Positions 11,344 to 34,587 of a stretch of 64,000 bases of DNA are shown one piece after another. A model generated the notes under the pieces. That model had not been told where the DNA came from. It did no database searches and was given only the letters and a program-made list of their open reading frames with translations. Where the stretch lies: positions 62,001 to 126,000 of the forward strand of contig NZ_SSCL01000007.1 in NCBI RefSeq assembly GCF_005876955.1, read 5' to 3'. A program made the translations under genes and the position numbers. The stretch is from Sinomonas gamaensis. Lineage in GTDB: Bacteria > Actinomycetota > Actinomycetes > Actinomycetales > Micrococcaceae. How positions within the stretch are numbered: the first letter of the stretch is position 1; every line of letters begins with the position of its first letter.

Positions 11344-12188
11344 GCCTCAAGGTCAATGATCTCGTCACTGAATTCGCGACGCGGAGGGGCGTGGTCGAGG
11401 CGCTCCACGGCATCTCGTTCGAGGTCGGGGAAAACGAAGTGGTCGGCATCGTCGGAGAGTCCGGATCCGGGAAGTCCACGGTGGTCCGCTCGGTGATCCG
11501 CCTCCTCGTCCCGCCGGGACGGGTCGCTTCGGGAACAGTCGAGTTTGCCGGCCGCCCCCTCCTCGAGCTCCGCGAGAGCGAGCTGCGGGCCATCCGCGGC
11601 AAGGACATCGGCTTCATCGCGCAGAATCCGTTCAGCGCGCTGAATCCGGTGCTCCGCCTCGAGAAGCAGTTCGCCAACATCGCCAAGGCGCATGGAGTGA
11701 AAGCCGACGACGGCGCTCGCCGCCGCGCCGTCGACCTCCTCGCGGCGACGGGCGTGAGCGATCCCGAGCGCGTGATCCGCGGCTACGCCCACGAGCTGAG
11801 TGGCGGCATGGCCCAGCGCGTCGTGATCGCCATGGCGCTCTACCTCAACCCACGGCTGGTCATCGCCGACGAGCCGACGACGGCGCTCGACCTCACCGTT
11901 CAACGCCAGGTCCTCGATACGTTGCGGCGGCTGACCGTGGAGAGCGGGCGATCGATGCTGATCGTCACGCACGACCTCGGGGTCGTCAACGCGTACTGCC
12001 AGCGTGTGCTGGTGATGTACAAGGGCAGCATCGTGGAGCAGGGCCGGGTCGCCGAGGTCTTCACGGCGCCCCAGCACCCGTATACCGCGTCGCTCCTGAG
12101 CTCGGCCTCACCTCCGATCGAGCCGGCCGAAGCCGAAGTGGTTCCCTCACAACCCTTGGAGGTGGCAACGTGGCCATCATCGAAGTGA
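11340..12188 (+). CDS. ABC importer ATPase, DppD/OppD type
   Basis: 282 residues. Walker A GESGSGKST, the Q-loop IAQNPFSALNP, signature LSGGMAQR, Walker B LVIADEPTTALD and the switch His in IVTHDLG are all present. The C-terminal extension after LLSSASPPIEPAEAE is the OppD-type tail but lacks the usual Cys cluster for iron-sulfur binding. The ATG overlaps the permease TGA by four bases. It should pair with the next gene as a heterodimeric ATPase energising solute import. Confidence 0.92.
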   Translation: MSLKVNDLVTEFATRRGVVEALHGISFEVGENEVVGIVGESGSGKSTVVRSVIRLLVPPGRVASGTVEFAGRPLLELRESELRAIRGKDIGFIAQNPFSALNPVLRLEKQFANIAKAHGVKADDGARRRAVDLLAATGVSDPERVIRGYAHELSGGMAQRVVIAMALYLNPRLVIADEPTTALDLTVQRQVLDTLRRLTVESGRSMLIVTHDLGVVNAYCQRVLVMYKGSIVEQGRVAEVFTAPQHPYTASLLSSASPPIEPAEAEVVPSQPLEVATWPSSK

Positions 12189-12988
12189 ACGATCTGCGCA
12201 AGACGTTCCAGACGCCGCAAGGACGGAAGGTCCTGGCCGTCGACGGCGTCTCCTTCTCGGTCGAGGCAGGAGAGTGCCTCGGGATCATCGGTGAGAGCGG
12301 CTCGGGGAAGTCGACGCTCGGCCGCCTGCTGCTGAGGCTGCACGAGGCAGATTCGGGCTCCATCCTCTTGGACGGACAGGACATCCGGGCTCTGGTGCCG
12401 CGAGCGCTCCGCAAGCAGCGTCGGCACTGGCAGATCGTCTTCCAGGAACCGTTCGCCTCGCTCAATCCGCGGCTGTCGATCCAGCAGATCGTCGAGGAGC
12501 CCCTGATCGTCGCAGGGACCTACGGCTCGCGGACTGAACGGCGCGAGCGGGTGGCGCGGACGCTTGAGGAGGTCGGCCTGTCTGCCGAGTTCCTCGACCG
12601 CCGCCCCGCCAACCTCAGCGGCGGCCAGCAGCAGCGCGTCGGCATCGCTCGCTCGCTCGTCACCGATCCGAGCATCGTGGTCCTCGACGAGCCCACGGCC
12701 TCGCTCGACCTGACGATTCGCGCCTCGATCCTGCGGATGCTCGGTGACCTCCAAAGGGCCCGTGGCCTCACGTACCTCTTCATCTCCCACGACATCGAGA
12801 CCGTGCGGAACTTCTGCTCGCGCGTGGCGGTGATGCATCACGGCCGCTTCGTGGAGGTCGGGACGGCGCGGGACGTGCTCGAGGATCCGCAGCAGCCCTA
12901 CACGCAGCGGCTCATGGCCGCGGCGATGCCGCCCCTGCCCTTCGCGGCATCGGTCGGAACCATGTCGACGCAAGCGGGGAACTCATGA
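12170..12988 (+). CDS. ABC importer ATPase, DppF/OppF type
   Basis: 272 residues with Walker A GESGSGKST, Q-loop VFQEPFASLNPRL, signature NLSGGQQQR, Walker B IVVLDEPTASLD and switch His FISHDIE. Second ATPase of the importer. It starts at a GTG inside the end of the preceding gene (19-bp overlap); GGAGG eight bases upstream supports this start. The TGA overlaps the ATG of the next permease gene. Confidence 0.92.
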   Translation: MAIIEVNDLRKTFQTPQGRKVLAVDGVSFSVEAGECLGIIGESGSGKSTLGRLLLRLHEADSGSILLDGQDIRALVPRALRKQRRHWQIVFQEPFASLNPRLSIQQIVEEPLIVAGTYGSRTERRERVARTLEEVGLSAEFLDRRPANLSGGQQQRVGIARSLVTDPSIVVLDEPTASLDLTIRASILRMLGDLQRARGLTYLFISHDIETVRNFCSRVAVMHHGRFVEVGTARDVLEDPQQPYTQRLMAAAMPPLPFAASVGTMSTQAGNS

Positions 12989-14070: not shown

Positions 14071-14940
14071 ATGTTCACTAAATTGAAGAACGACAAACTA
14101 GTCGTCCTGGGTGGGCTCATTCCCCTCGACGGCCGCGTGAGCTGGGTCCCCGCTGGCTCCACAGGGTTCCAGCCTTCGAACTGCTACCTGCTCTCGGAGC
14201 GCGGCGAAGGTGCCGCAGCCACCGACTCCCACCTCCTCATTGACTCGGGAGTTGCACTCCACGCGGAGCAGATCCTCGGAGATCTCGCCGCCCTGATCGG
14301 TGACGGAGGAGCCCTTTCGGTCTTCTTCACCCGGGCGGAGATGGACTGCGTCTCGAACCTTGAGCCGATCGCTCGCAGCTTCGACATCCAGCGGCTCTTC
14401 ACCGGCGGCGTGATCAACCCGTTCGACGCCTTCGAGGACCTCAACCTCATGGCGCTCCGCGGCCGCCGGCACCAGATCGACGCGATGCGCTCGGGGGAGG
14501 GCGATTCCCTGGCCCGCGCTGCCTCAATCGACATCGGGGCTGGCCGCGTCCTCGAGATCGAGGCGCCGCTTCTGCGCCTCCTCATGACGTTCTGGGGCTG
14601 GGACGCCGAGACCGGCACGCTCTTCACCTCGGACACGTTCACGCACGGCACCATTCAGCACCCGCACGACTCGCGGATCATCGACTCGACCGTTGAGGAC
14701 ACGACGACGCCGGAACAGGTGGCGGGCCACCTGTTCGCGAAGTACGAATGGCTCCCGCGCGCCACGTGCGAGCCCCTGCGCGAATGGCTTGCGGCGAAGT
14801 TCGACGAACTCGACCCCGAGATCATCGCTCCCTCGCGAGGCTGTGTACTGCGCGGACGCGACGTGGTCCGGCGTCACCTCGACTACATGCTCGCCGCGCT
14901 CACGCCCCAGCACGCCGGCCTCGTCAGCCAAGGCGCATAG
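14071..14940 (+). CDS. MBL-fold protein with RxEMDC in place of the metal motif (pair 1, member A)
   Basis: 289 residues. The fold is recognised from LLIDSGVALHAEQIL, the FTSDTFTHG segment and overall order of motifs, closest to the flavodiiron (ODP) branch of metallo-beta-lactamase proteins. Where those have HxExDH, this has T87-R-A-E90-M-D92-C93: Glu and Asp remain, both His are replaced by Arg and Cys. It is probably not a normal dinuclear hydrolase; it may bind one metal, be a non-catalytic partner, or have a new chemistry. It follows the permease by 9 bp, with ATTGAAG just upstream. A paralogue at 18169 has the same substitution (RTEMEC). Function unknown. Confidence 0.7.
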   Translation: MFTKLKNDKLVVLGGLIPLDGRVSWVPAGSTGFQPSNCYLLSERGEGAAATDSHLLIDSGVALHAEQILGDLAALIGDGGALSVFFTRAEMDCVSNLEPIARSFDIQRLFTGGVINPFDAFEDLNLMALRGRRHQIDAMRSGEGDSLARAASIDIGAGRVLEIEAPLLRLLMTFWGWDAETGTLFTSDTFTHGTIQHPHDSRIIDSTVEDTTTPEQVAGHLFAKYEWLPRATCEPLREWLAAKFDELDPEIIAPSRGCVLRGRDVVRRHLDYMLAALTPQHAGLVSQGA

Positions 14941-14948
14941 GAGAAATC

Positions 14949-15764
14949 ATGGAACAGCTTGTTGAGACGATGAGCAGCGACCTTCCGCGCAGCGTGGCCG
15001 ACGGCGTCACCTGGATGAGCTCCTGCCTCCCCTTCCACCTGGCGGACCGGGTGATCCACGGGCACAACTCGACCTTCCTCGTCCGAGGCGAGTCGTCGTC
15101 GCTGCTCGTGGACACAGGGAACCCCTCGAGCTGGCCGATCATCTCGCAGAAGCTCGACGAACTGCTCGACGGCGAGCCTCTCACCTACGTGTTTCCGACT
15201 CACCCCGAGCTCCCGCACACCGGGAACCTGCCCCGGCTCGTGCAGAAGTACCCCGAGATCCAGATCGTGGGCGACGTCCGCGACTACCACCTGTTCTATC
15301 CACAGATCGAGCCGAACCTGCACGCTCGCGTCCCGGGCGATCGCATCGATCTGGGCGGCGGGTACGAATTCGTTGTCGTCGAGGCGCTCATCCGCGACCT
15401 GCCGAACACGCAATGGGGATTCGTTCCCAAAGCCGGCGTGCTCTTCACCGCGGACGGGTTCTGCTACATGCACCGACCCGAGCTCGACGACGAGGATCCC
15501 GTCCACCTTCCCGGTGAGTGCGGTCTCGTGACGACTGAGCTCTCCGGGCCAATCGCCGTCGAGAACGCGGCCTTCTTCACGGGAAGCGCCCTCTATTGGG
15601 CGCGATTCTGCAACGACGCCGACCAGGTGTACGACCGCGTCCTCCGGCTGATTGACGACCTCGATGTCCGGACCGTCGCCCCCACCCACGGCAACGTCAT
15701 CACCAACGTCCGCGACGTCGAACCCATCATCCGCACCGGGCACCAGCGCGCCTACCGGTACTGA
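14949..15764 (+). CDS. MBL-fold protein with HPELPH motif (pair 1, member B)
   Basis: 271 residues, start ATG 8 bp after the previous gene with AGGAGAA before it. Flavodiiron-like MBL domain: SSLLVDTGNPSSW, then H85-P-E87-L-P89-H90-TGNLP, i.e. the HxExDH motif with Pro instead of Asp. Later positions GDVRDYHLF, FTADGF and the terminal APTHGN could supply Asp and His ligands. There is no flavodoxin or rubredoxin domain, so it is not a complete flavodiiron protein. The paralogue at 18924 shares HPEIPH, VFPTHPE and GDVRDY. Likely metal-dependent hydrolase or oxygenase; substrate unknown. Confidence 0.75.
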   Translation: MEQLVETMSSDLPRSVADGVTWMSSCLPFHLADRVIHGHNSTFLVRGESSSLLVDTGNPSSWPIISQKLDELLDGEPLTYVFPTHPELPHTGNLPRLVQKYPEIQIVGDVRDYHLFYPQIEPNLHARVPGDRIDLGGGYEFVVVEALIRDLPNTQWGFVPKAGVLFTADGFCYMHRPELDDEDPVHLPGECGLVTTELSGPIAVENAAFFTGSALYWARFCNDADQVYDRVLRLIDDLDVRTVAPTHGNVITNVRDVEPIIRTGHQRAYRY

Positions 15765-15777
15765 CAGCACCCGCTTT

Positions 15778-15840
15778 TTCACCCACCCCGCCACCCCGCC
15801 ACCCCAACCACCCACCCCACCACCCGCATCCCCCTTCTGC
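15778..15840. repeat. C-rich CCACCC tract, G-quadruplex-prone on the minus strand
   Basis: Between the MBL gene and the solute-binding protein gene, the plus strand is almost all C, A and short runs of the word CCACCC. On the complement there are at least eight runs of three or four G in about 60 bases, which can form G-quadruplexes. It lies in the leader of the lipoprotein gene, so it may tune its expression relative to the upstream operon. Confidence 0.55.
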
Positions 15841-15871
15841 ACCATCCCTCAAAGAAAAAGGTGTTAGGACC

Positions 15872-17464
15872 ATGAATCGCTTGCGTCTGCTCTCCGGCGG
15901 TTTGGCCGCCGCCCTCGCGCTCTCGGTCACGGGCTGTGGAGGCAGCTCCGACGCGTCCTCGACCCAGCAGCCGGACAACGTCGTCGTGGCGGTCGGGGCC
16001 CTCCCGGACAGCCTCACCCCAGCGCCCTGGGGCGGCAGCGCCTCGCACGTCGTCCTCAGCGGCCTGGGCTCCCAGCTCCTGCAGTACAAGACGACGGCGA
16101 CGGCGAGCGACCCCTGTGGTCAGCCGACCACCGAAGTCTCGGGTCGCCTCGCCGAGAGTGCGACGCCGGCGCCCGACGGCAAGGGCGTCGTCGTCAAGCT
16201 CAGGAAGCTCACCAGCCAGTTCGGCCACACCCTCTCGGCCGAGGACGTGCGCTGGAGCCTGCAGATCGGCATGCAGCGCCAGCCGGTCATGAAGGGCACG
16301 CTGTCGAGCAGTGGCTTCGACGTCAACAACCTCGTCAAGGTCATCGACGACAGCACGGTCGAGCTCAACACGACCTCGCTCACCTCGTTCAGCGTCGAGT
16401 CCCTCCAGAACAACCTCTTCTACATCCACGACAGCGTGGAGGCGAAGAAGCATGTGACGCCCGATGATCCGACGGCGAACAACTGGCTCTCCAAGAACCT
16501 CGCCGACTACAGCGGCTGGGCCCTCGAGGAGTTCACGCCCGGCACGTCCCTCACCGTGACCGCCGACCCGAAGTGGGAGGGGAAGCGCGGCCCCGTCAAG
16601 CGCGTGGTCGTCAAGGCCGTCCCCAACACCTCGACGCGGAGCCAGCTCGTGCAGACGGGTGAGGCCCAGGTGGCGAACGGCTTCGAGTACGACCAGTACG
16701 CGTCGCTCGGCGATTCGCCCAACGTGAGCATCCTGAACTGCCCGAGCGCGACCCGAGACACCCTGATGTTCAGCACGAAGTCGGGACCGCTCGCGGACGC
16801 CCGCGTGCGGCACGCCATCTCTGAGGCCATCGACCGCGCCGCACTCGTCAAGGGTGCCTACGCCGGCTACGGCAAGGCCTCGCAGGCCACCTTCCCCGGT
16901 GGGGACCCGTCGTCGTTCTACTCGTTCAACCTCGACGACGCGAAGAAGCTCATGGCGGACGCCGGGTATGCGAACGGCTTCAAGCTCGACCTGAGCTACA
17001 GCGCGACCCGCCCCGGACCCGTCGCCGCCAAGTCGGCCGTCCTCATCCAGTCGATGCTCAAGCAGATCGGGATCGACGTGCAGCTCCAGAACATCGCCAG
17101 CTCCACGGACTTCTCGAGCGCGCTGATCCAGGGCCGCTTCCAGGCGGTGCTCTACTCGGAGCCGATCGTCATCGCCGACCCGGCGTTCTACAGCTACGCG
17201 TACTACGCCGGAGACGCCCCGAGCAACACCACGGGCTGGAAGGACGCCAAGTTCGATCAGCTCCGCACGCAGCTCGCCGCCACACCGCAGGACAAGACCG
17301 CCCAGCGGAATGACCTCATCAAGCAGATGACCGCCGTCGTCGACGCCGGCGCACCGATCCTGTCCCTCGTCGAGACTCGCGGCATCATCGCGACGAAGAA
17401 GGGGCTGAGCGGGGCGACGCCGCTCTCGAACGGCCAGATCTACTTCAACGCCCTCGGCAGCTGA
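15872..17464 (+). CDS. ABC importer solute-binding lipoprotein (SBP family 5)
   Basis: 530 residues. The N-terminus is a lipoprotein signal with lipobox LSVTGC (Cys at about 22), so it is anchored outside the membrane. The mature part follows the DppA/OppA family 5 plan, with SAEDVRWSL, PLADARVRHAISEAIDRAALV and LIQSMLKQIGIDVQLQN segments. It should capture the substrate for the importer at 10456-14061. Placement behind two MBL-fold genes ties those genes to the transported compound. TTAGGA precedes the ATG. Confidence 0.9.
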   Translation: MNRLRLLSGGLAAALALSVTGCGGSSDASSTQQPDNVVVAVGALPDSLTPAPWGGSASHVVLSGLGSQLLQYKTTATASDPCGQPTTEVSGRLAESATPAPDGKGVVVKLRKLTSQFGHTLSAEDVRWSLQIGMQRQPVMKGTLSSSGFDVNNLVKVIDDSTVELNTTSLTSFSVESLQNNLFYIHDSVEAKKHVTPDDPTANNWLSKNLADYSGWALEEFTPGTSLTVTADPKWEGKRGPVKRVVVKAVPNTSTRSQLVQTGEAQVANGFEYDQYASLGDSPNVSILNCPSATRDTLMFSTKSGPLADARVRHAISEAIDRAALVKGAYAGYGKASQATFPGGDPSSFYSFNLDDAKKLMADAGYANGFKLDLSYSATRPGPVAAKSAVLIQSMLKQIGIDVQLQNIASSTDFSSALIQGRFQAVLYSEPIVIADPAFYSYAYYAGDAPSNTTGWKDAKFDQLRTQLAATPQDKTAQRNDLIKQMTAVVDAGAPILSLVETRGIIATKKGLSGATPLSNGQIYFNALGS

Positions 17465-17488
17465 GCGCAGCCAGACAAGGACAGCATC

Positions 17489-18172
17489 ATGATTGAACTC
17501 TGCGGAAAACAGGTCCGCGACACCCTCGACGAGCTGCTCGACCCCGCGACAACGGCCCTCGTGGTCATCGACATGCAGAAGGGCGCGGTGTTCCCGGGCG
17601 CTGCGATCGGCGACTCTGGCCACGACCTGAGCATGATGCCGCGAGTGCGCGAGCGGTGCCAGGCGGCGATCGAGGGAGCCCGGCGCAACAACGTCCCCGT
17701 GTTCCACATTCGCGTGGAGAACCTGCCCGACGGTGCGAGCTCGCCGGCCGCCTGGCTCCGGGCCCTCTACACGGCGGCGAACGGACGGCCGATCGACCTC
17801 GGCAAGCTGAGCCTCAAGGGTGACCCGGCCACCGATTTCTGCGACGAGTGCCTCCCGCTCGACGGCGAAGTGGTCATCACCAAGCGCCGTCCCAGCGCGT
17901 TCGTCGCGACAGAGCTCGGGCTCCTGCTCCGGAGCCAGGGGATCGAATCAGTGGCCCTCGTGGGCGTCTCGACCGGCGGCTGCGTTGAGGCGACGCTCCG
18001 CGACGCCGTGCACAACGACTTCTACGCCGTTCTGCTCGAAGACGCTGTGGGCGCCTACGACACGGCGGTCCACGACGCGGCGCTGACGGTCATGCGTGCC
18101 AGGCACGACCTCTGCACCGTTGACGAAGCCGTCGCGGTCTGGGACCGAGCACAGGGCGCGACCCGGCCATGA
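17489..18172 (+). CDS. isochorismatase-like cysteine hydrolase
   Basis: 227 residues of the family that includes N-carbamoylsarcosine amidase, maleamate amidohydrolase, ureidoacrylate amidohydrolase and nicotinamidase. The catalytic triad is complete: D28 in VVIDMQKG, K132 in ITKRRPSAF and C165 in STGGCVEAT. The cis-peptide VSTGGCV context matches amide hydrolases rather than true isochorismatase. It lies 24 bp after the binding-protein gene and its TGA overlaps the next MBL gene. Best guess: hydrolysis of a half-amide or carbamoyl intermediate released from a ring by a partner enzyme. Confidence 0.88.
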   Translation: MIELCGKQVRDTLDELLDPATTALVVIDMQKGAVFPGAAIGDSGHDLSMMPRVRERCQAAIEGARRNNVPVFHIRVENLPDGASSPAAWLRALYTAANGRPIDLGKLSLKGDPATDFCDECLPLDGEVVITKRRPSAFVATELGLLLRSQGIESVALVGVSTGGCVEATLRDAVHNDFYAVLLEDAVGAYDTAVHDAALTVMRARHDLCTVDEAVAVWDRAQGATRP

Positions 18173-18927
18173 GCACCACGGTTCCGGCGGTCGCCCGGCC
18201 CGAGCCCTTGGCCGGAGGGAGGGTGTACCGCCTCGGCGGCGAGATCCTTCTGGACGCGCGCGTGAGCTGGTGCCCACCGGGGGTCCGCCGGAACCAGCCG
18301 GTCAACGCGTACCTCATTCGAGGCGATGGGGGATCGGTCCTCGTGGACGCCGGCGTCCGGCTCCACGAGGTGGAGATGCTCGCCCAGCTCGGGGAACTCC
18401 TCGAGCCGGGGGAGCCGCTCTCGATCCTCCTGACCCGTACGGAGATGGAGTGCTGCCTCAACATTCCTGCGATCGAGGAACGATTCACCGTCGGCTCGGT
18501 CTGGTATACCGGGGGCATCACGGTGCCGCGATCGAGTGCGCCCGTGCGCAGAGTCTCGGTGGACCCAGGCACCTCCCGGGAGGTCGAGGTCGCCGACGGC
18601 CTGGTCCTCGAACTCGTCTCACCGCTGCTGCGGCTGCTTCCCACGCTGTGGGTCTTCGAGCCATCCTCGGGCGTTCTCCTGACGTCGGACGCATTCACGC
18701 ACCGCGCCAGCCCGGAGGAGGCCGATCCGGCCGACGGCCTCGTCAAGTTCGCCTGGTTCGCCAACGCGGACACGGCGCCGATCGCCGCTGACATCCGACG
18801 GATCGTCGAAAGCCGTGAAGTCACGGCGATCGGCCCAGGCTATGGGCTGCCTTTCGTGGGCCGCGACGAGTGCCTGCGGGCGGCCGAGCAGCTCGCCGCC
18901 CACCTCGAGGAGGTGGGACGGGGATGA
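18169..18927 (+). CDS. MBL-fold protein with RTEMEC motif (pair 2, member A)
   Basis: 252 residues, paralogue of the protein at 14071. Shared elements are LxGxIxLDxRVSW near the N-terminus, a VLVDAGVRLHEVEML strand, T89-R-T-E92-M-E94-C95 at the metal-motif position, an SPLLRLLPTLW segment, and LTSDAFTHR. Compared with flavodiiron MBL domains (HxExDH), both His are lost; the Asp is Glu here. ATGA overlaps on both ends couple it to the isochorismatase-like and the next MBL gene. Conservation of R, E, M and C between two diverged copies suggests the altered site is functional. Confidence 0.7.
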   Translation: MSTTVPAVARPEPLAGGRVYRLGGEILLDARVSWCPPGVRRNQPVNAYLIRGDGGSVLVDAGVRLHEVEMLAQLGELLEPGEPLSILLTRTEMECCLNIPAIEERFTVGSVWYTGGITVPRSSAPVRRVSVDPGTSREVEVADGLVLELVSPLLRLLPTLWVFEPSSGVLLTSDAFTHRASPEEADPADGLVKFAWFANADTAPIAADIRRIVESREVTAIGPGYGLPFVGRDECLRAAEQLAAHLEEVGRG

Positions 18928-19760
18928 ACGACGACGTCATCACCCCCGCGCGCCGCATTGCCGAGGGCGTCTTCTGGCTGGGCGGGTGCCTCTCGGCCTA
19001 CTCGGCGGGCGAGGAAGTGCACTACCACGTCTCCTCGTACTTGATCGTGGGCTCGAAGGCCACGATCCTGGTGGACACCGGCGACCCTGCCCACGCCCCG
19101 CTGGTCTTGGCCCAACTCGAACAGGCGCTCGACGGCCGCACCCTCGACTACGTCTTCCCCACCCATCCCGAAATCCCGCACGCAGGCAACCTGCCGGCCC
19201 TGCTGCAGCGCTACCCGGGGGCCGTCGTCGTCGGGGACGTGCGGGACTACGCGCTTCACTTTCCCGAGTTCGAGGGAAGGTTGGAGCCGCGCCGCCCCGG
19301 CGAGTCGATCGAGCTCGGCACGGACGCGGACAGCCGTCCCTTCCGCTTCGTCCCCGCGTACATCCGGGACCTCGAGAACACGCTCTGGGGCTACGACGGC
19401 GGGTCGGGGACCCTGTTCGTCTCCGATGGGTTCTCGTTCATCCACGACGTCCCGGCATCGGACGCCGGATCGCTGGACGACGACGAGCCCGTGCACCGCC
19501 CCGGGCAGTGCCGCCTCACCTCGGGCGAGATGCCTCTGCCGCCGACCGTCGAGCAGGCGGCCTACGGGACGGGCCGAGCCCTGTACTGGACCAAGTTCGT
19601 CGATGTCAGCGCCGCCTTCGAAGCCATCGAGCGCACGCTCGAGGAGCTGCCGACGTCGTTCATCGGCCCAGCGCACGGCAACGTGATCGACGACGTCGAC
19701 GGGATGCTCAGGACCTCGCTCGCGGCACATCGCCGGGTTTACGAAGGCCCAGCCGGGTAG
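18924..19760 (+). CDS. MBL-fold protein with HPEIPH motif (pair 2, member B)
   Basis: 278 residues, paralogue of the protein at 14949. Key segments are TILVDTGDPAHAP, H81-P-E83-I-P85-H86-AGNLP, VGDVRDYAL, LFVSDGF and IGPAHGN. Pro replaces the Asp of HxExDH as in its paralogue, and the late Asp and His are retained. It begins by an ATGA overlap with member A, the same A-then-B order as in pair 1, so the two proteins are probably made in equal amounts and may act together. Substrate unknown. Confidence 0.75.
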   Translation: MNDDVITPARRIAEGVFWLGGCLSAYSAGEEVHYHVSSYLIVGSKATILVDTGDPAHAPLVLAQLEQALDGRTLDYVFPTHPEIPHAGNLPALLQRYPGAVVVGDVRDYALHFPEFEGRLEPRRPGESIELGTDADSRPFRFVPAYIRDLENTLWGYDGGSGTLFVSDGFSFIHDVPASDAGSLDDDEPVHRPGQCRLTSGEMPLPPTVEQAAYGTGRALYWTKFVDVSAAFEAIERTLEELPTSFIGPAHGNVIDDVDGMLRTSLAAHRRVYEGPAG

Positions 19761-19824
19761 AAACCTAGAGATATTGAAGATCGATCAAAAAAATGAAGCT
19801 TTGCGAATTGCGAGGAGAGAGCTG

Positions 19825-20748
19825 ATGCGAGACCTCATCGGATACGGGGAGAACCCGCCCGTCGTCGGGTGGCCAGGCGGCGCCAAAGTCGCCGTGTCCC
19901 TCGTGGTCAACTACGAAGAGGGCGCCGAGCGATCCATCGCGGCAGGCGACGAGCGGGATGAGGACATCGTCATCTTCGGCGGCTGGTCCTCCGATCCCGC
20001 CCGCCGGAATCTCATGAAGGAATCGTTCTTCGAGTACGGGAGCCGCGCCGGGATCTGGCGTTACCTCGCGATGCTCCGGGAGCGCGGTCTCAGGGCCACG
20101 TTCATGGCGTGCGGCGAGGCCCTCGAGAAGAATCCCGAGGCGGCGCGCGCGATCGCCCGCGACGGCCACGAGATCTGCGGGCACGGCTACCGCTGGCGGG
20201 GCATGGCGGGGATGACGCCTGAGGAGGAGCGGGCCGAGATCCGCGCCTGCAAGGCAGCCATCGAGGCGACGGCCGGAGTCACTCCCGTGGGCTGGTACGT
20301 GCGCGAGGACATCACCGAGAAGACCAGGGCGATCCTCGTGGAGGAGGGCTTCCTCTACGACTCGAATTCGTATGCTGACGACCTTCCATATTTCGTGTCC
20401 GCCGGCGGCGCCAAGCACCTCGTGCTCCCGTATTCCGGGGACACGAACGACGGTCGCTTCTGGGGCCCCGGCAGCCTCGGCACCGGCGAGGACTTCTTCA
20501 CCGTGCTGAAGGACACCCTCGATTGCCTCGTTGCCGAGGGAGAGACCGTGCCGAAGATGATGTCCGTGGGGATTCACCTCAGGATCGGCGGCCGGCCGAG
20601 CGTTGCGAACGGGGTCCGGAAGTTCCTCGACTACGCGCAGAGTGTCGACGGCGTGTGGTTCGCAACGCGCGAGGAGATCGCCCGGTGGTGGCTCGCCCAT
20701 GCGCCGGCCGAGCTCCCGGGCGAGGTTTTCGAGGAGGTCGCCTCGTGA
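19825..20748 (+). CDS. PuuE-like polysaccharide-deacetylase-fold hydrolase
   Basis: 307 residues. Opens with RDLIGYGENPPVVGWPGGAKVA-type PuuE signature, followed by NYEEGAE, the metal-site segment CGHGYRW, LPYSGDTND and MMSVGIHLRIGGRP. This branch of the NodB fold contains allantoinase PuuE and cyclic-imide hydrolases; it opens N-containing rings rather than deacetylating sugars. An open frame reaches upstream to 19774, but the ATG at 19825 has AGGAG at good spacing and starts the conserved RDLIGYG block. ATTGAAG occurs at 19773, 52 bp upstream. A second copy lies at 24202-25074. Confidence 0.82.
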   Translation: MRDLIGYGENPPVVGWPGGAKVAVSLVVNYEEGAERSIAAGDERDEDIVIFGGWSSDPARRNLMKESFFEYGSRAGIWRYLAMLRERGLRATFMACGEALEKNPEAARAIARDGHEICGHGYRWRGMAGMTPEEERAEIRACKAAIEATAGVTPVGWYVREDITEKTRAILVEEGFLYDSNSYADDLPYFVSAGGAKHLVLPYSGDTNDGRFWGPGSLGTGEDFFTVLKDTLDCLVAEGETVPKMMSVGIHLRIGGRPSVANGVRKFLDYAQSVDGVWFATREEIARWWLAHAPAELPGEVFEEVAS

Positions 20749-21855: not shown

Positions 21856-22580
21856 AGAAGCTCACCACCGCCGAGGCACCCGGATATAATTCCGCGAACC
21901 CGGAAATAATGAAGGAGCCCTTGGTGGGAGACTCTCCGAACGGTGTCATCAACGGCGGGGCCGCCAACGGCGGTGCCGGCAACGGCGCTGCCGTCAATGG
22001 CAACGGCGACCGCGATTTCTGGATCTCGCGCATCGGCGCCACGATCCGCGAACAGCGCGTAGGGCGCTTCACCGTCGAGGAGCTTGCCGAGCGCGCCGGT
22101 GTCAGTGCTGGGCTCATCAGCCAGATCGAGCGCGGCATCGGCAATCCGTCGTTTGCCACGCTCCTGCGGCTGGCGAGCTCCTTGGATCTTCCGCTGGCCA
22201 CCATGTTCAATGACCCCAGCGAAGGCCGGCACAACATGCTCGTGAGGCGTGCCGATCGCCGCCGGATCGAGATCCCGTCGCAGGGCGTGGTCATGGAGCT
22301 CATCGTTCCGGACACCGAGCGCAAGCTGGGCGTGGTGAGCATGACCATTCCCGCCCATTTCGACGGCGCCAACTCCTCCGATTCCCATGAGGGGGAGGAG
22401 TGCGTCATCGTGCAGTCGGGGTCCCTCGTCGCGACGGTCGGCGGCCAGGAGTTCCACCTCGAGGCGGGCGACAGCCTCACCTACGACGCCTCCCTCCCGC
22501 ACTGGTGGCACAACCGCACCGACTCGGCCGCCGTCATGCTCGCCGTCTCGACCCCACCCTCGCTCGGGCGGGCGCACTGA
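21852..22580 (+). CDS. XRE-family regulator with C-terminal cupin domain
   Basis: 242 residues. An N-terminal disordered tail rich in Asn-Gly (about residues 33-53) precedes an XRE helix-turn-helix (TVEELAERAGVSAGLISQIERG) and a cupin effector domain (HEGEECVIVQSG ... SLPHWWHN). This PuuR-like architecture senses a small ligand and controls catabolic genes. It is the only regulator inside the 6.9-28.1 kb cluster, so it probably governs it. The ATG at 21852 is coupled to the aldolase stop; a second in-frame ATG at 21909 would remove 19 residues. Confidence 0.88.
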   Translation: MKKLTTAEAPGYNSANPEIMKEPLVGDSPNGVINGGAANGGAGNGAAVNGNGDRDFWISRIGATIREQRVGRFTVEELAERAGVSAGLISQIERGIGNPSFATLLRLASSLDLPLATMFNDPSEGRHNMLVRRADRRRIEIPSQGVVMELIVPDTERKLGVVSMTIPAHFDGANSSDSHEGEECVIVQSGSLVATVGGQEFHLEAGDSLTYDASLPHWWHNRTDSAAVMLAVSTPPSLGRAH

Positions 22581-23299
22581 TGCCCGCCCCCGGGCCGGCG
22601 GTACGGCTCGGGGTGCTCGTGCCGTCGTCGAACTCCAACGCCGAGACCCTCACTGCCGCGCTGCTCGCCACCAGGAGCGATATCGGCGTCCACTACAGCC
22701 GCTTCCGCCTGCCGCCTGACCTCGGCGACCCGATCGACGCGTCGGTCCTGGGCGAGGCGCCGAGTCTCCTGGCCGACGTCGAGCCGGACGCCGTTGCCTT
22801 CCACGGCACCTCCGGGACCTGGGTGGGGCTCGACGGCGACCGACGCCTCTGCGCCGAGCTCGCCGAGGGCACCGGGGCCCCGGCAACGACAGCGTCCCTC
22901 GCCGTCGTCGAGGCGCTCGCCGCGCTCTCGGTGACGCGCGTCGCCGTCGTCTTCCCGGGGCCTGCGTCGATCCTGCCGCTCATCTCCGACGAGTATGCGC
23001 GCCATGGCCTCGACGTTGTCGCAACGTCGAGCCCGGAGGCGGTGCTGGCCAACCCCGAGATTGCCCGGCTGGGCGCCGACGACATCGGGGCGCTCTTGCG
23101 TCCGGCCTTCGTCCCCGACGCCGAAGCCGTGGTGTGCATCGGGACAAACCTGCGCTCGGCGTATCTCGCTGCGGCGTTCGAGCGGGAGCTCGGCCTTCCG
23201 GTCGTGGACAGCGCCGTGGCCACCCTGTGGGAGCTCCTGCGACTGGCGGGCGCCGCAAAGCCGGTGAGCGGCTGGGGCCGCCTTATGGAGACGGTGTAG
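22580..23299 (+). CDS. arylmalonate decarboxylase / maleate isomerase-like protein
   Basis: 239 residues of the Asp/Glu racemase superfamily, opening with LGVLVPSSNSNAE as in maleate isomerases and AMDases. Racemases and maleate isomerases use two Cys; here the first position is G76-T77-S78, the dioxyanion-hole triplet seen in arylmalonate decarboxylase, and only C186 (VVCIGTNLRS) remains. The C-terminus GWGRLMETV resembles AMDase GYGRL. This points to a one-Cys decarboxylase-type chemistry on a malonate-like or related acid rather than cis-trans isomerisation. TGATG overlap with the regulator gene. Confidence 0.78.
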   Translation: MPAPGPAVRLGVLVPSSNSNAETLTAALLATRSDIGVHYSRFRLPPDLGDPIDASVLGEAPSLLADVEPDAVAFHGTSGTWVGLDGDRRLCAELAEGTGAPATTASLAVVEALAALSVTRVAVVFPGPASILPLISDEYARHGLDVVATSSPEAVLANPEIARLGADDIGALLRPAFVPDAEAVVCIGTNLRSAYLAAAFERELGLPVVDSAVATLWELLRLAGAAKPVSGWGRLMETV

Positions 23300-29676: not shown

Positions 29677-30437
29677 GGTGCTGCGGTCTCCTTCCGGGCG
29701 GGGCGAAGGGGTTCGACGTCGACGCCGTCGCGGCTTGCTATGAGCACACTCCGGTCCGGCGCCTCCCTCCACTCGGGACGCTCATCGTACGGCTCGCTCG
29801 CCACCACGGTGCCGTGTTCGCCGGCCCGCCAGAACAGCGTGTCGCCGTATGCCGTGGCCCAGATCCGGTCTCCGTTGGTGAGGAGGAAGTTGTAGCGGCC
29901 GGTTGCGGCGGCGGAGGCGTTGAGGACGACGGCGGAGAGGGCCTCCGCGGGATCGTCGCCTTCGTCGAGGCGGGCCAGGACGAGTGCCCACAGGAGCGCC
30001 GAGTCGACCGTGGACTCGCGGGCCAGAAGCCGTCCGGGCGGAAGCGTCGCGGCGAGGCGGGCAAGGCTTTCCGGCCACCCTGAGACGGCGCCGTTGTGGC
30101 TGAACAGCCACCGGCCCGAGGAGAACGGAGCGGCCGCCGACTCATCCGCCGTCATGCCGGGCGTCGCCGAGCGGACGGCGGCGAGCAGGCAGCGCGTCCT
30201 GGTGACCCGCGCGACGTCGGCGAACGAACTGTCGGCCCACATCGGGACGGCGCGCCGATAGCGGGCGGGGAGGTCGTCGTCGTCCGCGTACCAGCCGACG
30301 CCGAAGCCGTCGGCGTTGACGGTCCCGTAGCGTTGAAGCCGTGGTGCCCACGCCTGCCGGAAGAGGCTGTGCTCGGGCTCCATGACTACCGATGCGAGGG
30401 TGGCTCTCTCACCGAGGTACGCGAGGTGGCGGCACAT
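29673..30437 (-). CDS. egtC: gamma-glutamyl hercynylcysteine sulfoxide hydrolase EgtC
   Basis: 254 residues, class II glutamine amidotransferase-like hydrolase that removes glutamate from the ergothioneine intermediate. The N-terminal nucleophile follows the initiator Met (MCRHLAYLG), and NADGFGVGWY, SHNGAVSGW and EPYDE match the family. The ATG shares one base with the egtB stop (TGATG). Order egtB-egtC-egtD supports the assignment over other Ntn hydrolases. Confidence 0.94.
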   Translation of the reverse strand: MCRHLAYLGERATLASVVMEPEHSLFRQAWAPRLQRYGTVNADGFGVGWYADDDDLPARYRRAVPMWADSSFADVARVTRTRCLLAAVRSATPGMTADESAAAPFSSGRWLFSHNGAVSGWPESLARLAATLPPGRLLARESTVDSALLWALVLARLDEGDDPAEALSAVVLNASAAATGRYNFLLTNGDRIWATAYGDTLFWRAGEHGTVVASEPYDERPEWREAPDRSVLIASRDGVDVEPLRPARKETAAP

Positions 30438-31771
30438 CAGGCGACCTCCGCCGTCGTCGCATCCCGCGCGGTGCGGAACCCGGCGAAGATCTGGCGGCGA
30501 ATGGGATAGTCCCAGTTGCGGAACGTGCCACGGCAGGCGACCTGGTCCGCAGCCCACGAGCCGCCGCGGAGCACCTTGTAGTCCGTGCCGAAGAAGACCT
30601 CGCTGTACTCGCGGTAGGGGAACGCGCGGAAGCCGGGGTACGGCTGGAAATCGCTCGAGGTCCACTCCCATACGTCGCCGATGAGCTGTCGAACGCCGAG
30701 CGCCGAGGCTCCCTCGGGGTACGAGCCAGCCGGTGCTGGGCGGAGCGCGCCGCCGCCGAGGTTGGCGCGAACCGGGGTGGGGTCGTCGTCGCCCCACGGG
30801 TACCGGCGGGACCTCCCGGTGGCGGGGTCGAAGCGTGCGGCCTTCTCCCACTCGGCCTCAGTCGGCAATCGGCGCCCCGCCCACCGCGCATAGGCGTCGG
30901 CCTCGTGCCAGCACACGTGCTGCACCGGCTCGTCCTGGGGCACCGGCTCAACGGCTCCGAAGCGGCGCCGGAACCAGTCGTCGCCCTCGCGGGTCCAGAA
31001 CAGCGGCGCCTCGAGGCCGGCCTTCTGCCGGTACGCCCACCCCTCGGCGCTCCACCAGCGTGGGTCGTCGTACCCGCCGGCGTCGAGGAAACGCGTGAAG
31101 TCCGCGTTCGTCACCGGCACTGTGTCGATCCAGAACGGCCGGACGTCCACGGTGTGCGACGGCCGTTCGTTGTCCAGGGCCCACGGCTCGATTGACGTGC
31201 CCATCGCATACTCGCCGCCGGGGACGAGAACTTCCGAGGGCAGGCCCCTGCGGGTTCCGACGACGCCCGCGGGCAGCGGCTCCGGGAACAGGACCGGCTC
31301 GCCCTTGCGCAACTGATGGGTCGCGAGCATCGTCTCGGCGTGCTGTTGCTCGTGCTGGACGATCATGGCGAACGCGAAGCCCTGGTCGATCAGGGCCGAG
31401 CCCTCGAGCGGCGACTTCTCGAGGACGTCGAGCGCCTTGTCCCGCACTTCGGCGATGTACTTCCGCGCCTCGTCCGGGCCGAGCAGCGGCAGTGCCGGCC
31501 GCTCGGCGCGCGGGTGCTGGAACGCGTCGTAGAGTTCGTCGAGGTCGCAGCGCAGGGGGACCCGGTGGCCCACGTCCCGCACGAGCCAGATCTCCTCCTG
31601 GCTCCCCACGTGCGCAAGGTCCCACACGAGCGGGGACATGAGCGGCGAGTGCTGGGCCATGAGCTCCCGGTCGTCGCAGGAGGTCAGGGCGAGCGTGCGC
31701 CGACGGGAGCGCTCGAGGCGGTCCGCGATCGCCGTGCGGAGCTGCTCGATGGGCAGCGGGTCGTGGCTCAC
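30437..31771 (-). CDS. egtB: hercynine oxygenase EgtB
   Basis: 444 residues. Iron enzyme that joins hercynine to gamma-glutamyl-cysteine and oxidises the sulfur. An N-terminal DinB-like domain carries the metal motif VQHEQQHAETMLATH, and the C-terminal formylglycine-generating-enzyme-like domain shows VPGGEYAMGT, RLPTEAEWEKAA and the GDVWEWTSSDF to RGGSW block. GTG start overlaps the egtA stop by four bases. Long upstream open frame is a shadow of egtA. Confidence 0.95.
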   Translation of the reverse strand: MSHDPLPIEQLRTAIADRLERSRRRTLALTSCDDRELMAQHSPLMSPLVWDLAHVGSQEEIWLVRDVGHRVPLRCDLDELYDAFQHPRAERPALPLLGPDEARKYIAEVRDKALDVLEKSPLEGSALIDQGFAFAMIVQHEQQHAETMLATHQLRKGEPVLFPEPLPAGVVGTRRGLPSEVLVPGGEYAMGTSIEPWALDNERPSHTVDVRPFWIDTVPVTNADFTRFLDAGGYDDPRWWSAEGWAYRQKAGLEAPLFWTREGDDWFRRRFGAVEPVPQDEPVQHVCWHEADAYARWAGRRLPTEAEWEKAARFDPATGRSRRYPWGDDDPTPVRANLGGGALRPAPAGSYPEGASALGVRQLIGDVWEWTSSDFQPYPGFRAFPYREYSEVFFGTDYKVLRGGSWAADQVACRGTFRNWDYPIRRQIFAGFRTARDATTAEVA

Positions 31772-33036
31772 GGGGCCTCCCCGGAGGTGGGTTGAAGGCG
31801 TCTGTCGTCCGCCGGGCAGCGGGCGCGGAGCGGGTACGACTCGGCGAACCGCTCGACCCGTCGCCTTGCCGCGTCCTCGAGGCCGAGCCGCGGGAGGGCG
31901 GCGAGCGCTGCGCGTGCGCACTGGGCGGCCGCGCGGGCGAGGCGGGGGTCTTCGAGCCCACGGCGGGCGGCGTCGTCGATCGTTGCGGGAGTGGGGGAGA
32001 AGCGCTCGCAGGCGTCGTCCGCAGCGGCGGCTGCGCCGTCGTCGTCCATGAGGGCGGCGGTGATGACGGCGGCCGCCTCCCATTCGTCGCCCGCCTGCGC
32101 GTCGAGGGCACGGAGCTCGAGGAAGCCGCGCGGGCGGATTGGCGGGAAGAGGGTGGTGAGGTGATAGTCGACGTCGTCCAGGGTAGCGGGCCGGGGCGAG
32201 CTGGAGCGGAGCCAGCCGCGCAGCGTGAGTCCGGCGGGCGCGTCCCACCGGCCGGCCTCGGCGGGCACGCACAGAACGGGGGCGTCGAGGGCGTAGCGTG
32301 CCCAGGCCTCGGCCGGTTCGACTCCGGAAACGCGGTGGAGGACCGCCTGCGTGCGTTCGGGTTCGATCGCCGACCATACCCGTTGGCGGGCGCTCTTCCA
32401 CCTGCTCTTCCGGGGAGCGCGACGGCTGTATTCGAACGGCGAGTTCGCGAACATCGCGACCAGCACGGGAAGGAGGCGGTGCGCACGCTCCCAGCGCTCG
32501 CGGGCCTCGCGCTCGCTCCCGCCGGACTGAAGGCAGACCTGGAGCGACGCCGTCGAACACATCATGGTCCTGCCGGCCTCGCCGGCGGCGTCGAAGTGCC
32601 GCTGCATCGCTGCATAGCGCGGATGGTCGAGGGTGCGTCGTGGCGTGCGGTGTGCGTCGAGGGCAGCGGGGCTGGTGGCCAGCCCCGCTGCGTCGAGGAG
32701 GCGGTCGACGGCGGTGAGGTCGGCTCGGACGCGGGGGAGAAGCTCGCCGAGATGGGGCGCACAGGCGCTGCTGATCTCGACTTGGCCGCCGGGCTCGAGG
32801 GTCAGAATGCCGCCGCCCGGCAGACGGTCCCCGAGGGGGTCCAGAACCCGGCGGAGCTCGGGGACGGTCACGGGCGCTGCGGGGTTTCCGCGCCGGTGGA
32901 CGATGTGCTCGACTTCAATACCCACCGCCTTCGGTGGCCCCGTCTTGAAGCAGACAGACGCAACGTAGGCCTCGGCGTCCTCCTCCGAGACCGGTTCCAC
33001 CTCCGTGAGAAGGCCCGGACCAACGTGCAGGCTCAT
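31768..33036 (-). CDS. egtA: glutamate-cysteine ligase EgtA
   Basis: 422 residues. ATP-dependent ligase making gamma-glutamyl-cysteine for ergothioneine. The family segments VGIEVEHIVHRRG, LTLEPGGQVEISSA and MMCSTASLQVCLQ are visible. Two ATGs lie close together; the one at 33036 is chosen because AAGGAG sits seven bases before it, whereas the ATG at 33042 is too near. First gene of the egtABCD run, 48 bp after an FAD/Rieske gene in the same direction. No egtE (PLP lyase) is present in the operon. Confidence 0.93.
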   Translation of the reverse strand: MSLHVGPGLLTEVEPVSEEDAEAYVASVCFKTGPPKAVGIEVEHIVHRRGNPAAPVTVPELRRVLDPLGDRLPGGGILTLEPGGQVEISSACAPHLGELLPRVRADLTAVDRLLDAAGLATSPAALDAHRTPRRTLDHPRYAAMQRHFDAAGEAGRTMMCSTASLQVCLQSGGSEREARERWERAHRLLPVLVAMFANSPFEYSRRAPRKSRWKSARQRVWSAIEPERTQAVLHRVSGVEPAEAWARYALDAPVLCVPAEAGRWDAPAGLTLRGWLRSSSPRPATLDDVDYHLTTLFPPIRPRGFLELRALDAQAGDEWEAAAVITAALMDDDGAAAAADDACERFSPTPATIDDAARRGLEDPRLARAAAQCARAALAALPRLGLEDAARRRVERFAESYPLRARCPADDRRLQPTSGEAP

Positions 33037-33084: not shown

Positions 33085-34587
33085 CTACCAGAGCAGCTTT
33101 GACGTGGGCTGAACGGAAATGTCCCTGTGGGCGAGGTCCTTTTCGGCCGGTCCCTGGATCACCGTGCCGTCCAGAGCGAACCTCGATCCGTGGCACGGGC
33201 AGTCCCAAGTGCGGGCTCGGCCGTTGAACTCGACGGTGCAGCCGAGGTGCGTGCAGATGGCGGTGAGCGTGCGGAGCGAGCCATGGTCGTCCCTATAGAC
33301 CGCCGTCGGCTCGCCCCCGATCTCAACGACGATTCCTTCGCCTGGACCAAGGGCTTTGTCCGGCTCGGGCGCTTCCGTGGGGGCGTCCGACGACGGCGCC
33401 GCGGCTTTCGCTGTCACCTCTCGGTTAGTGTCGAACAGCTCGCTCCACGGGTTGTCGCCTCCGGTGATCAGATCCGCGACGACGAGCGCACCCGCAGTGC
33501 CGTTCGTGAGCCCCCACTTCCGCAGTCCCGTGATCGCGTAGACGTGCTGGGAGTCGGGCAGCATCGGCCCGGCGAAGGGCAGCCCGTCAACCGGCATGGC
33601 GTCCTGGGTCGACCAGCGGTACGCCGGCTCCTCCGCGCCGAGGCGTTCCTTCGCGAAGCCCGCGAGGCGATCAAAGCGCGCGGAGGTGTCTCCGCCGCCC
33701 GGGACAAGGTGCCCTTCGCCGCCCACGAGAACGTAGTCCGTGCCGCCGAGGTTCACCGCAAGGAGGGAACGCATGGGCTCGTCGACGCTGATGAAGGTGG
33801 CATCTGCCGGGAACCCACGTGCCGGGCTCGCGACGATGTACGACCGATGCAGGGACAGCCGCTCGGCGAAGCGCCCGCCGTCGTCCAAGGGGACGTTCGT
33901 CGCGACGATGACATCGCGCGAGCGGACCGTCCCGCCCTCGGTCACGACCTCGGCGGGCGAGCCATCCTTGATGCGCCGCACCCGGGTGCCCTCGACGACG
34001 AAGCTGCCCTCGCCGTCGACCGCTCTCCCGAGCCCCTGAAGGTAGTTCACGGCGTGAATCTGCGCCTGGTGGTCGAAGCGGACGGCACCCTTGGCCGCAA
34101 AGGGGAGCGGGACGTCGGTGGTGAAGGTCGCGGGGAGGTCGAGCGAGGCGGTGAGCTCTGCTTCGGCGCGGACCTTGGCCAGGGTGCTGTCGGACTCGGC
34201 GTACGTATAGTTCGCGACCCGCCGGAAGCTGCACTCGATCCCTTCGGCGGCTACCGTTCGGGCGACGTGCTCGATCGCCGCCTGGTTCGCCTGTCCGTAG
34301 GCACGGGCCTTGGCGCGGCCGTGCTGGTCCGCCAGCTGGGAGTAGGCGAGGCGGTGCAGCGAGGTGACCTTCCCGGTCGTGTTGCCCGTGACGCCGGTGG
34401 CGACCCGGGCTGCCTCGAGGACCGCGACCGTCAGCCCGCGTCGCTTGAGTTCCAGCGCGGCGCTGAGGCCGGCGATGCCGGCGCCCACGACGGCGACGTC
34501 CACTTCCACGTCCTCAGTGAGGCTCGGGTAGCTGGTCGCCGGCGAGGTGGCTAGCCAGATTGATCCGGACTGAGCGGTGTGCGCCAT
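33085..34587 (-). CDS. FAD-dependent oxidoreductase with C-terminal Rieske domain
   Basis: 500 residues. Residues ~28-380 form a DAO-type FAD domain (VAVVGAGIAGLSAALELKRRG; AITGLRKWGLTNGTAGA near its end). After an acidic linker (about 390-415) comes a [2Fe-2S] Rieske domain with CTHLGCTVEFNGRARTWDC and PCHGSRF as cluster ligands (two Cys, two His). Such fusions are common in actinobacteria with poorly defined substrates. GGAGG precedes the ATG. It lies upstream of egtA on the same strand; co-transcription with the ergothioneine operon is possible. Confidence 0.9.
   Translation of the reverse strand: MAHTAQSGSIWLATSPATSYPSLTEDVEVDVAVVGAGIAGLSAALELKRRGLTVAVLEAARVATGVTGNTTGKVTSLHRLAYSQLADQHGRAKARAYGQANQAAIEHVARTVAAEGIECSFRRVANYTYAESDSTLAKVRAEAELTASLDLPATFTTDVPLPFAAKGAVRFDHQAQIHAVNYLQGLGRAVDGEGSFVVEGTRVRRIKDGSPAEVVTEGGTVRSRDVIVATNVPLDDGGRFAERLSLHRSYIVASPARGFPADATFISVDEPMRSLLAVNLGGTDYVLVGGEGHLVPGGGDTSARFDRLAGFAKERLGAEEPAYRWSTQDAMPVDGLPFAGPMLPDSQHVYAITGLRKWGLTNGTAGALVVADLITGGDNPWSELFDTNREVTAKAAAPSSDAPTEAPEPDKALGPGEGIVVEIGGEPTAVYRDDHGSLRTLTAICTHLGCTVEFNGRARTWDCPCHGSRFALDGTVIQGPAEKDLAHRDISVQPTSKLLW

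Follow-up and report, generated by a model that had tools for sequence, protein, structure and literature searches.

The window analysed here is a stretch of 64,000 nt from Sinomonas gamaensis (contig NZ_SSCL01000007.1, positions 62,001 to 126,000), and contains four genes for MBL-fold proteins arranged in two tandem pairs, in each of which a member designated A is followed by a member designated B. The features, with positions in the window, are:

12170..12988, plus strand: ABC-transporter ATPase (its blast cluster contains a gene called ABC_tran)
14071..14940, plus strand: A1, MBL partner lacking the metal site, 289 aa
14332..14349, plus strand: A1 motif R88-A-E90-M-D92-C93, where HxExDH is expected (R in 81/81, E in 79/81 A sequences)
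14949..15764, plus strand: B1, partner with an intact-looking metal site, 271 aa
15201..15218, plus strand: B1 motif H85-P-E87-L-P89-H90 (H, E and H in 79/79, P in 77/79 B sequences)
15872..17464, plus strand: SBP_bac_5 solute-binding protein, separating the two pairs (Pfam, 1.7e-54)
17489..18172, plus strand: isochorismatase-family protein, its end overlapping the start of A2 (Pfam, 1.4e-34)
18169..18927, plus strand: A2, second copy of A, 252 aa
18436..18453, plus strand: A2 motif R-T-E-M-E-C
18924..19760, plus strand: B2, second copy of B, 278 aa (its start and the A2 stop overlap as ATGA)
19164..19181, plus strand: B2 motif H-P-E-I-P-H
19774..20748, plus strand: polysaccharide-deacetylase-fold protein, presumably PuuE-like (Pfam, 2.6e-17)
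22457..23299, plus strand: arylmalonate decarboxylase/Asp-Glu racemase family protein (Pfam, 2.2e-18)

A recheck of the coordinates of A1, B1, A2 and B2 placed the four genes and their two tandem pairs where a sequence-only reading of the window had put them, and the motifs R-A-E-M-D-C (A1), R-T-E-M-E-C (A2), H-P-E-L-P-H (B1) and H-P-E-I-P-H (B2) were found as it had described. One SBP_bac_5 gene and one isochorismatase gene lie between A1-B1 and A2-B2, and we take the genes upstream of the pairs to be ABC permeases. The Pfam types among the neighbours in the window include SBP_bac_5, isochorismatase, FmdA, amidohydrolases, deacetylase, HpcH and the arylmalonate-decarboxylase/Asp-Glu-racemase family. 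Elsewhere in the window, the minus strand carries a gene for a protein with FGE-sulfatase and DinB_2 domains (30437-32560), presumably EgtB-like and involved in ergothioneine synthesis, and another for an FAD-dependent oxidoreductase (DAO) with a Rieske domain at its C-terminal end (33085-34587).

B1, B2 and A2 pass the gathering threshold (22.7 bits) of the Pfam family Lactamase_B (PF00753), with 44.7, 49.6 and 22.9 bits, respectively; A1 alone had no Pfam match, and was assigned to the MBL superfamily by its predicted model and by the A profile. ODP, the oxygen-binding diiron protein, is a single protein; B1 and B2 scored below the cut-off (27.2 bits) of its Pfam family (PF19583), with 24.3 and 24.2 bits, and A1 and A2 did not match it. 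The NCBIfam matches of B1 and B2 all stayed below threshold; they involved the MBL portion of flavorubredoxin and further MBL models. The best solved relatives of B1 by sequence were flavodiiron proteins (5e-8), and a profile of 55 A rows retrieved ODP and flavodiiron proteins (4.8e-10 and 2.6e-8), while A1 alone found no relative by sequence among solved structures. Flavodiiron proteins and ODP were also the fold neighbours of the predicted models of A and B; for B1, the values for this branch and for other MBL rows were close (ODP 20.1-23.6, others up to 21.0). Both A and B have the predicted MBL-domain fold of the flavodiiron branch, and neither has its ligand set (HxExDH, H147, D166, H227) or its C-terminal flavodoxin domain. 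As the sequence-only reading had remarked, Pfam detected no flavodoxin or rubredoxin domain in any of the four proteins (252-289 aa), and it detected no sensor domain in them either.

Seven ligand positions, whose numbering we take to be that of flavodiiron proteins (H79, E81, D83, H84, H147, D166 and H227), were read in 81 A and 79 B sequences after removal of identical ones. Position 79 was R in all 81 A sequences, position 81 was E in 79 and D in 2, and position 166 (D188 in A1) was D in 81/81; position 147 had R in 74 and K in 7, a placement that depends on the alignment. More variation was seen at position 83 (92 in A1; D 39, E 24, M 16, S 1, Q 1), position 84 (93 in A1; C 51, S 27, A 3) and position 227 (Y 36, R 20, H 16, L 6, F 2, V 1). 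These counts indicate that A has kept the acids of the first site and exchanged its histidines for basic residues, and that the second site is drifting. Columns with at least 90 % identity in A numbered 18 of 271 and included four of the seven former ligand columns (p 4e-4, calculated over sequences that are not independent); N96, W175, F190 and W227 were also near-invariant. The spacing R-x-x-E occurs in the A of loci L028, L029, L104, L105, L109, L112, L128 and L129. The altered sites are conserved, as the sequence-only reading had noted, and do not reflect chance, with R 81/81, E 79/81 and D 81/81 in A and the full set HEPHDDH in 75/79 B sequences. Among 38 candidate open reading frames placed on the A columns, of which two were A and two were B, none of the remaining 34 had Arg at the H79 position (33 His, one Ser).

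The equation of A1 R169 with the H147 position is weakened by two alignments, in which this residue falls beside that position (one residue before it, with R149 of B), whereas in two other alignments it falls on it. In the predicted models, R169 of A and D150 of B are both situated five residues past the preceding strand and six before a shared Trp, a spacing that would favour the equation; the following strand begins six residues after R169 and five after D150, which would not.

The site of B is less altered than first stated. Gaps left out, B sequences showed H79 in 79/79, E81 in 79/79, P83 in 77/79, H84 in 79/79, D147 in 78/78, D166 in 78/78 and H227 in 77/77, and the four without the full set comprised one with L, one with A and two that are gapped. 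The P in place of D83 is B's own, but the D at H147 is common to B and its nearest non-paired MBL proteins, and HxDxDH-D-D-H was read in 22 of the 38 open reading frames mentioned above. Outside the usual ligand set, B also has near-invariant C26 (78/79), H37 (78/79), H175 (78/78), H186 (78/78), C191 (76/78) and E197 (numbered in B1); H186 and C191 occur as well in some tandem MBL pairs that keep both sites.

A genome scan with the B profile yielded 45 confirmed stretches, corresponding to 38 loci, and in 38/38 A lay next to B; in L067 the two genes are ca. 1 kb apart. The order was A-B in 21 loci and B-A in 17, and the two genes overlap in many of them. The A profile had no stretch conserved enough for this kind of scan, which was thus unable to find A without B, a case covered solely by whole-genome searches with A queries. 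Starting from 25 of the 38 loci, we searched 24 whole genomes with both profiles. The A profile identified 43 genes at >=190 bits, the next score being no higher than 88 bits; with the B profile, 43 genes were identified at >=181 bits, one of them continuing in two further pieces; paired by eye from their coordinates, the 43 A and 43 B left no orphan of either kind in these genomes. One locus, L047 (Arthrobacter sp. Hiyo8, G774), has both B genes interrupted by a stop or a frame change and one A split over two frames, breaks that could be sequencing errors.

In the order to which the Beijerinckiaceae MAG G783 belongs (347 genomes, limit 1e-15), 18 genomes besides G783 carry 19 A genes, all 19 beside B and all loci in the A-B order. 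Thirteen of these 18 carriers are small genomes, of 0.9-1.6 Mb, each with one A-B pair in what was found (L105, L106, L108-L118, L142). A search of the G813 class (337 genomes) added two more A-B pairs. Six plasmid records with A all have B adjacent; of the five regions fetched, one was without annotation, and in the other four the annotation calls B an 'MBL fold metallo-hydrolase' and A a 'hypothetical protein'. Closer to the window, the A1 query matched 3/15 genomes of the genus (in which G012 also carries A-B pairs), and B at 1e-18 was found in 5/216 genomes of the family and in 3/229 of the phylum of G775 (the centre itself and two unread matches at about 70 bits). With the A2 query, 11/396 genomes of the phylum matched: A was present in the window genome (G000), G114 and G060, five other matches were HxDxDH or flavodiiron-type MBL proteins, and the last three showed no open reading frame scoring with the A or B profile. 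The distribution of the pair is patchy.

In a further A-query search over 394 genomes, 53 gave a match at the 1e-3 level; of these, 30 had their loci fetched (the query's own genome among them) and 29 were read. The matches of the remaining 23, all at 3.7e-5 or weaker, and certain second matches lay outside this reading. Homologues of A without B, which the earlier reading had named as evidence against a partnership, were not found in the genomes searched; in the large samples (these 394 and the order of G783) the best 6 or 7 candidates per genome were scored, so that distant A orphans could be missed.

In an unrooted tree of 82 rows that included 33 A and 33 B, the bootstrap not fully settled, all 33 A fell on one side of a branch supported at 100/98, and all 33 B likewise at 100/100. 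A might descend from a duplicated B, and grouped with the HxDxDH branch at a support of only 95/62. The A and B distance matrices of the 33 pairs were correlated (r 0.716), a value reached in 0/2000 permutations (maximum 0.203), and nearest neighbours were concordant for 19/33 pairs; these mirrored distances may come from shared inheritance and not from contact. The mean A-A distance was 1.46 times the mean B-B distance. In four comparisons of A1 and A2 with two congeners, dN/dS was 0.184, 0.215, 0.223 and 0.252, as compared with 0.121-0.212 for B1 and B2 and 0.057-0.233 for nine neighbouring genes. A is therefore constrained, at the loose end of its operon, and gave no sign of the decay considered in the sequence-only reading.

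A solute-binding or tripartite-transporter gene (TctA included) was present in the fetched stretch of 34/38 loci, with SBP_bac_5 in 16, TctC in 16 and NMT1 in 2. Genes that recur near the pairs encode imide-, amide- and carboxylate-type hydrolases and lyases: arylmalonate-decarboxylase family in 16 loci, isochorismatase in 14, dihydropyrimidinase-like in 14, deacetylase in 13 and FmdA in 12; luciferase-like monooxygenases occur in 10, as the union of two clusters (7 and 5 loci). These counts are lower bounds weighted toward close relatives: cluster names are based on one or two scanned members, and the rough gene-calling script breaks down where DNA is AT-rich (as in L142) and overlooks some genes under overlapping open reading frames. 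The enzymes beside the pairs vary by lineage, and hence no single substrate follows from them. In L142, from a small genome, the neighbours are NeuB, UDP-GlcNAc 2-epimerase, a polysialyltransferase-like protein and EamA, which do not form a catabolic operon.

The obligate pairing, together with invariant residues in a site without metal, points to a heteromer with A as a maintained partner. We consider it probable that A and B are subunits of one heteromeric MBL hydrolase of the flavodiiron/ODP branch, with the metal on B and A as its partner. B would hold a mono- or dinuclear metal site (H85, E87, H90, D150, D169 and H247 in B1). A would have abandoned the metal, with Arg for H79, Arg or Lys at or beside H147, and E81 and D166 retained, and an ion-pair network would occupy its former metal site; its role might be in folding, dimerising or substrate binding. 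The module would hydrolyse an amide, imide, lactone or similar compound during catabolism of substances from the neighbouring importer, and the two paralogous pairs in the window probably correspond to two substrates or steps. The physical heteromer, already suggested in the sequence-only reading, is likely on genomic grounds (no orphans, both gene orders, separate tree branches, r 0.716 and dN/dS). A metal on B alone is also likely; the chances of hydrolytic and not redox chemistry are about even, a metallohydrolase acting on imported small molecules being our best guess from the context and the superfamily.

It is possible, if somewhat unlikely, that A and B make up a composite enzyme, in which the invariant Arg/Glu/Arg/Asp pocket of A would itself be a working site, anchoring the substrate or catalysing, and would complete B's metal site; they would then constitute an undescribed two-protein class of MBL enzymes, patchily distributed in operons of Actinomycetota and Alphaproteobacteria. 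A redox-active pair or a sensor of O2 or NO, with a diiron site on B like that of ODP and flavodiiron proteins and electrons supplied by a separate partner, seems unlikely: the predicted fold neighbours, the additional near-invariant C26, H37, H186 and C191 of B and the luciferase-like monooxygenases near 10/38 loci would agree with it, but Pfam detects neither a flavodoxin or rubredoxin domain nor a sensor domain, D83 is replaced by P in B, whose D for H147 is also found in a non-paired MBL branch, and the neighbours are chiefly importers, hydrolases and lyases. We find it rather unlikely that R88, E90, D188, R169 and residues 92-93 of A form a novel active site without metal that binds and converts a carboxylate or amide, A and B then running successive steps or sharing a composite site. 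Such a site would account for the R, the E or D, the D and the R or K present in 81/81 sequences each and for the near-invariant N96, W175, F190 and W227, but positions 92 and 93 vary, so that no nucleophile is strictly kept, and the kept charges are those that an ion-pair filler requires. Co-occurrence and mirrored trees would also fit two independent enzymes of one pathway that travel together without contact, which is improbable given that A and B share the same fold, are 1:1 in 24 genomes, overlap in many loci and keep two orders across unlike operons. Finally, that the A genes are decaying paralogues, as loss of the metal ligands and the 1.46-fold distance might suggest, is ruled out by dN/dS values of 0.184-0.252, by the invariant charges and by the presence of A wherever B is found, with no orphans in 24 genomes.

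Partners with and without metal ligands that are found together, as A and B are, have precedents, and the earlier statement that no described enzyme has this pairing was too strong in kind. Flv1 and Flv2 lost ligands that Flv3 and Flv4 kept (PMC4390876, PMC7785958), and INTS9/INTS11 is an MBL heterodimer of an active member and one without a metal site, INTS9 having NYHC for HxHxDH (PMC7980224). A partial coverage of the literature, by titles and the start of abstracts, gave no description of the A-B pair itself. The Flv1/Flv3 and Flv2/Flv4 pairs reduce O2 and contain both a flavodoxin and a flavin-reductase domain, whereas A and B have no flavodoxin domain, D83 and H147 are replaced by P and D in B, and hosts and operons are unlike; the loss of the site in A looks independent of that in Flv1. 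INTS9/INTS11 and CPSF100/CPSF73 resemble A-B as pairs of an active and a metal-site-less MBL protein, a heteromer being proposed for A-B, but they are eukaryotic RNA endonucleases with a beta-CASP domain from another MBL branch. The usual way to recognise an MBL protein is its motif of the HxHxDH type, and A, a seemingly obligate partner of B, is missed by this rule; should A turn out to be required, studies restricted to B would give a misleading picture.

Within the branch, ODP is a single diiron protein, in contrast to the two-gene A-B, and B1 and B2 fall below its Pfam cut-off. Outside the pair, the best matches of the A profile include non-paired MBL proteins with HxDxDH from the same class; like B they have D at H147, and unlike A they keep the ligands and have no Arg at H79. 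This family is common (L071-L088, L090-L092), with D at H147 where covered. The haloarchaeal plasmids of Natrinema and Halalkalicoccus and the genomes G833 and G813 have tandem MBL genes with H-x-[ED]-x-P-H, D, D and H, in which, unlike in A-B, both members keep the site; in G833 and G813, genomes of the G783 order, both read H-T-E-L-P-H. All these proteins are on the B side of the tree, and the haloarchaeal pairs adjoin TRAP or tripartite transporter genes. These two-site tandem pairs (L119 and L120, from G833 and G813; L133, L134) possibly represent the state before A lost its site. Since related pairs with two sites exist, a single family offers the chance to study how two sites gave way to one site and a partner.
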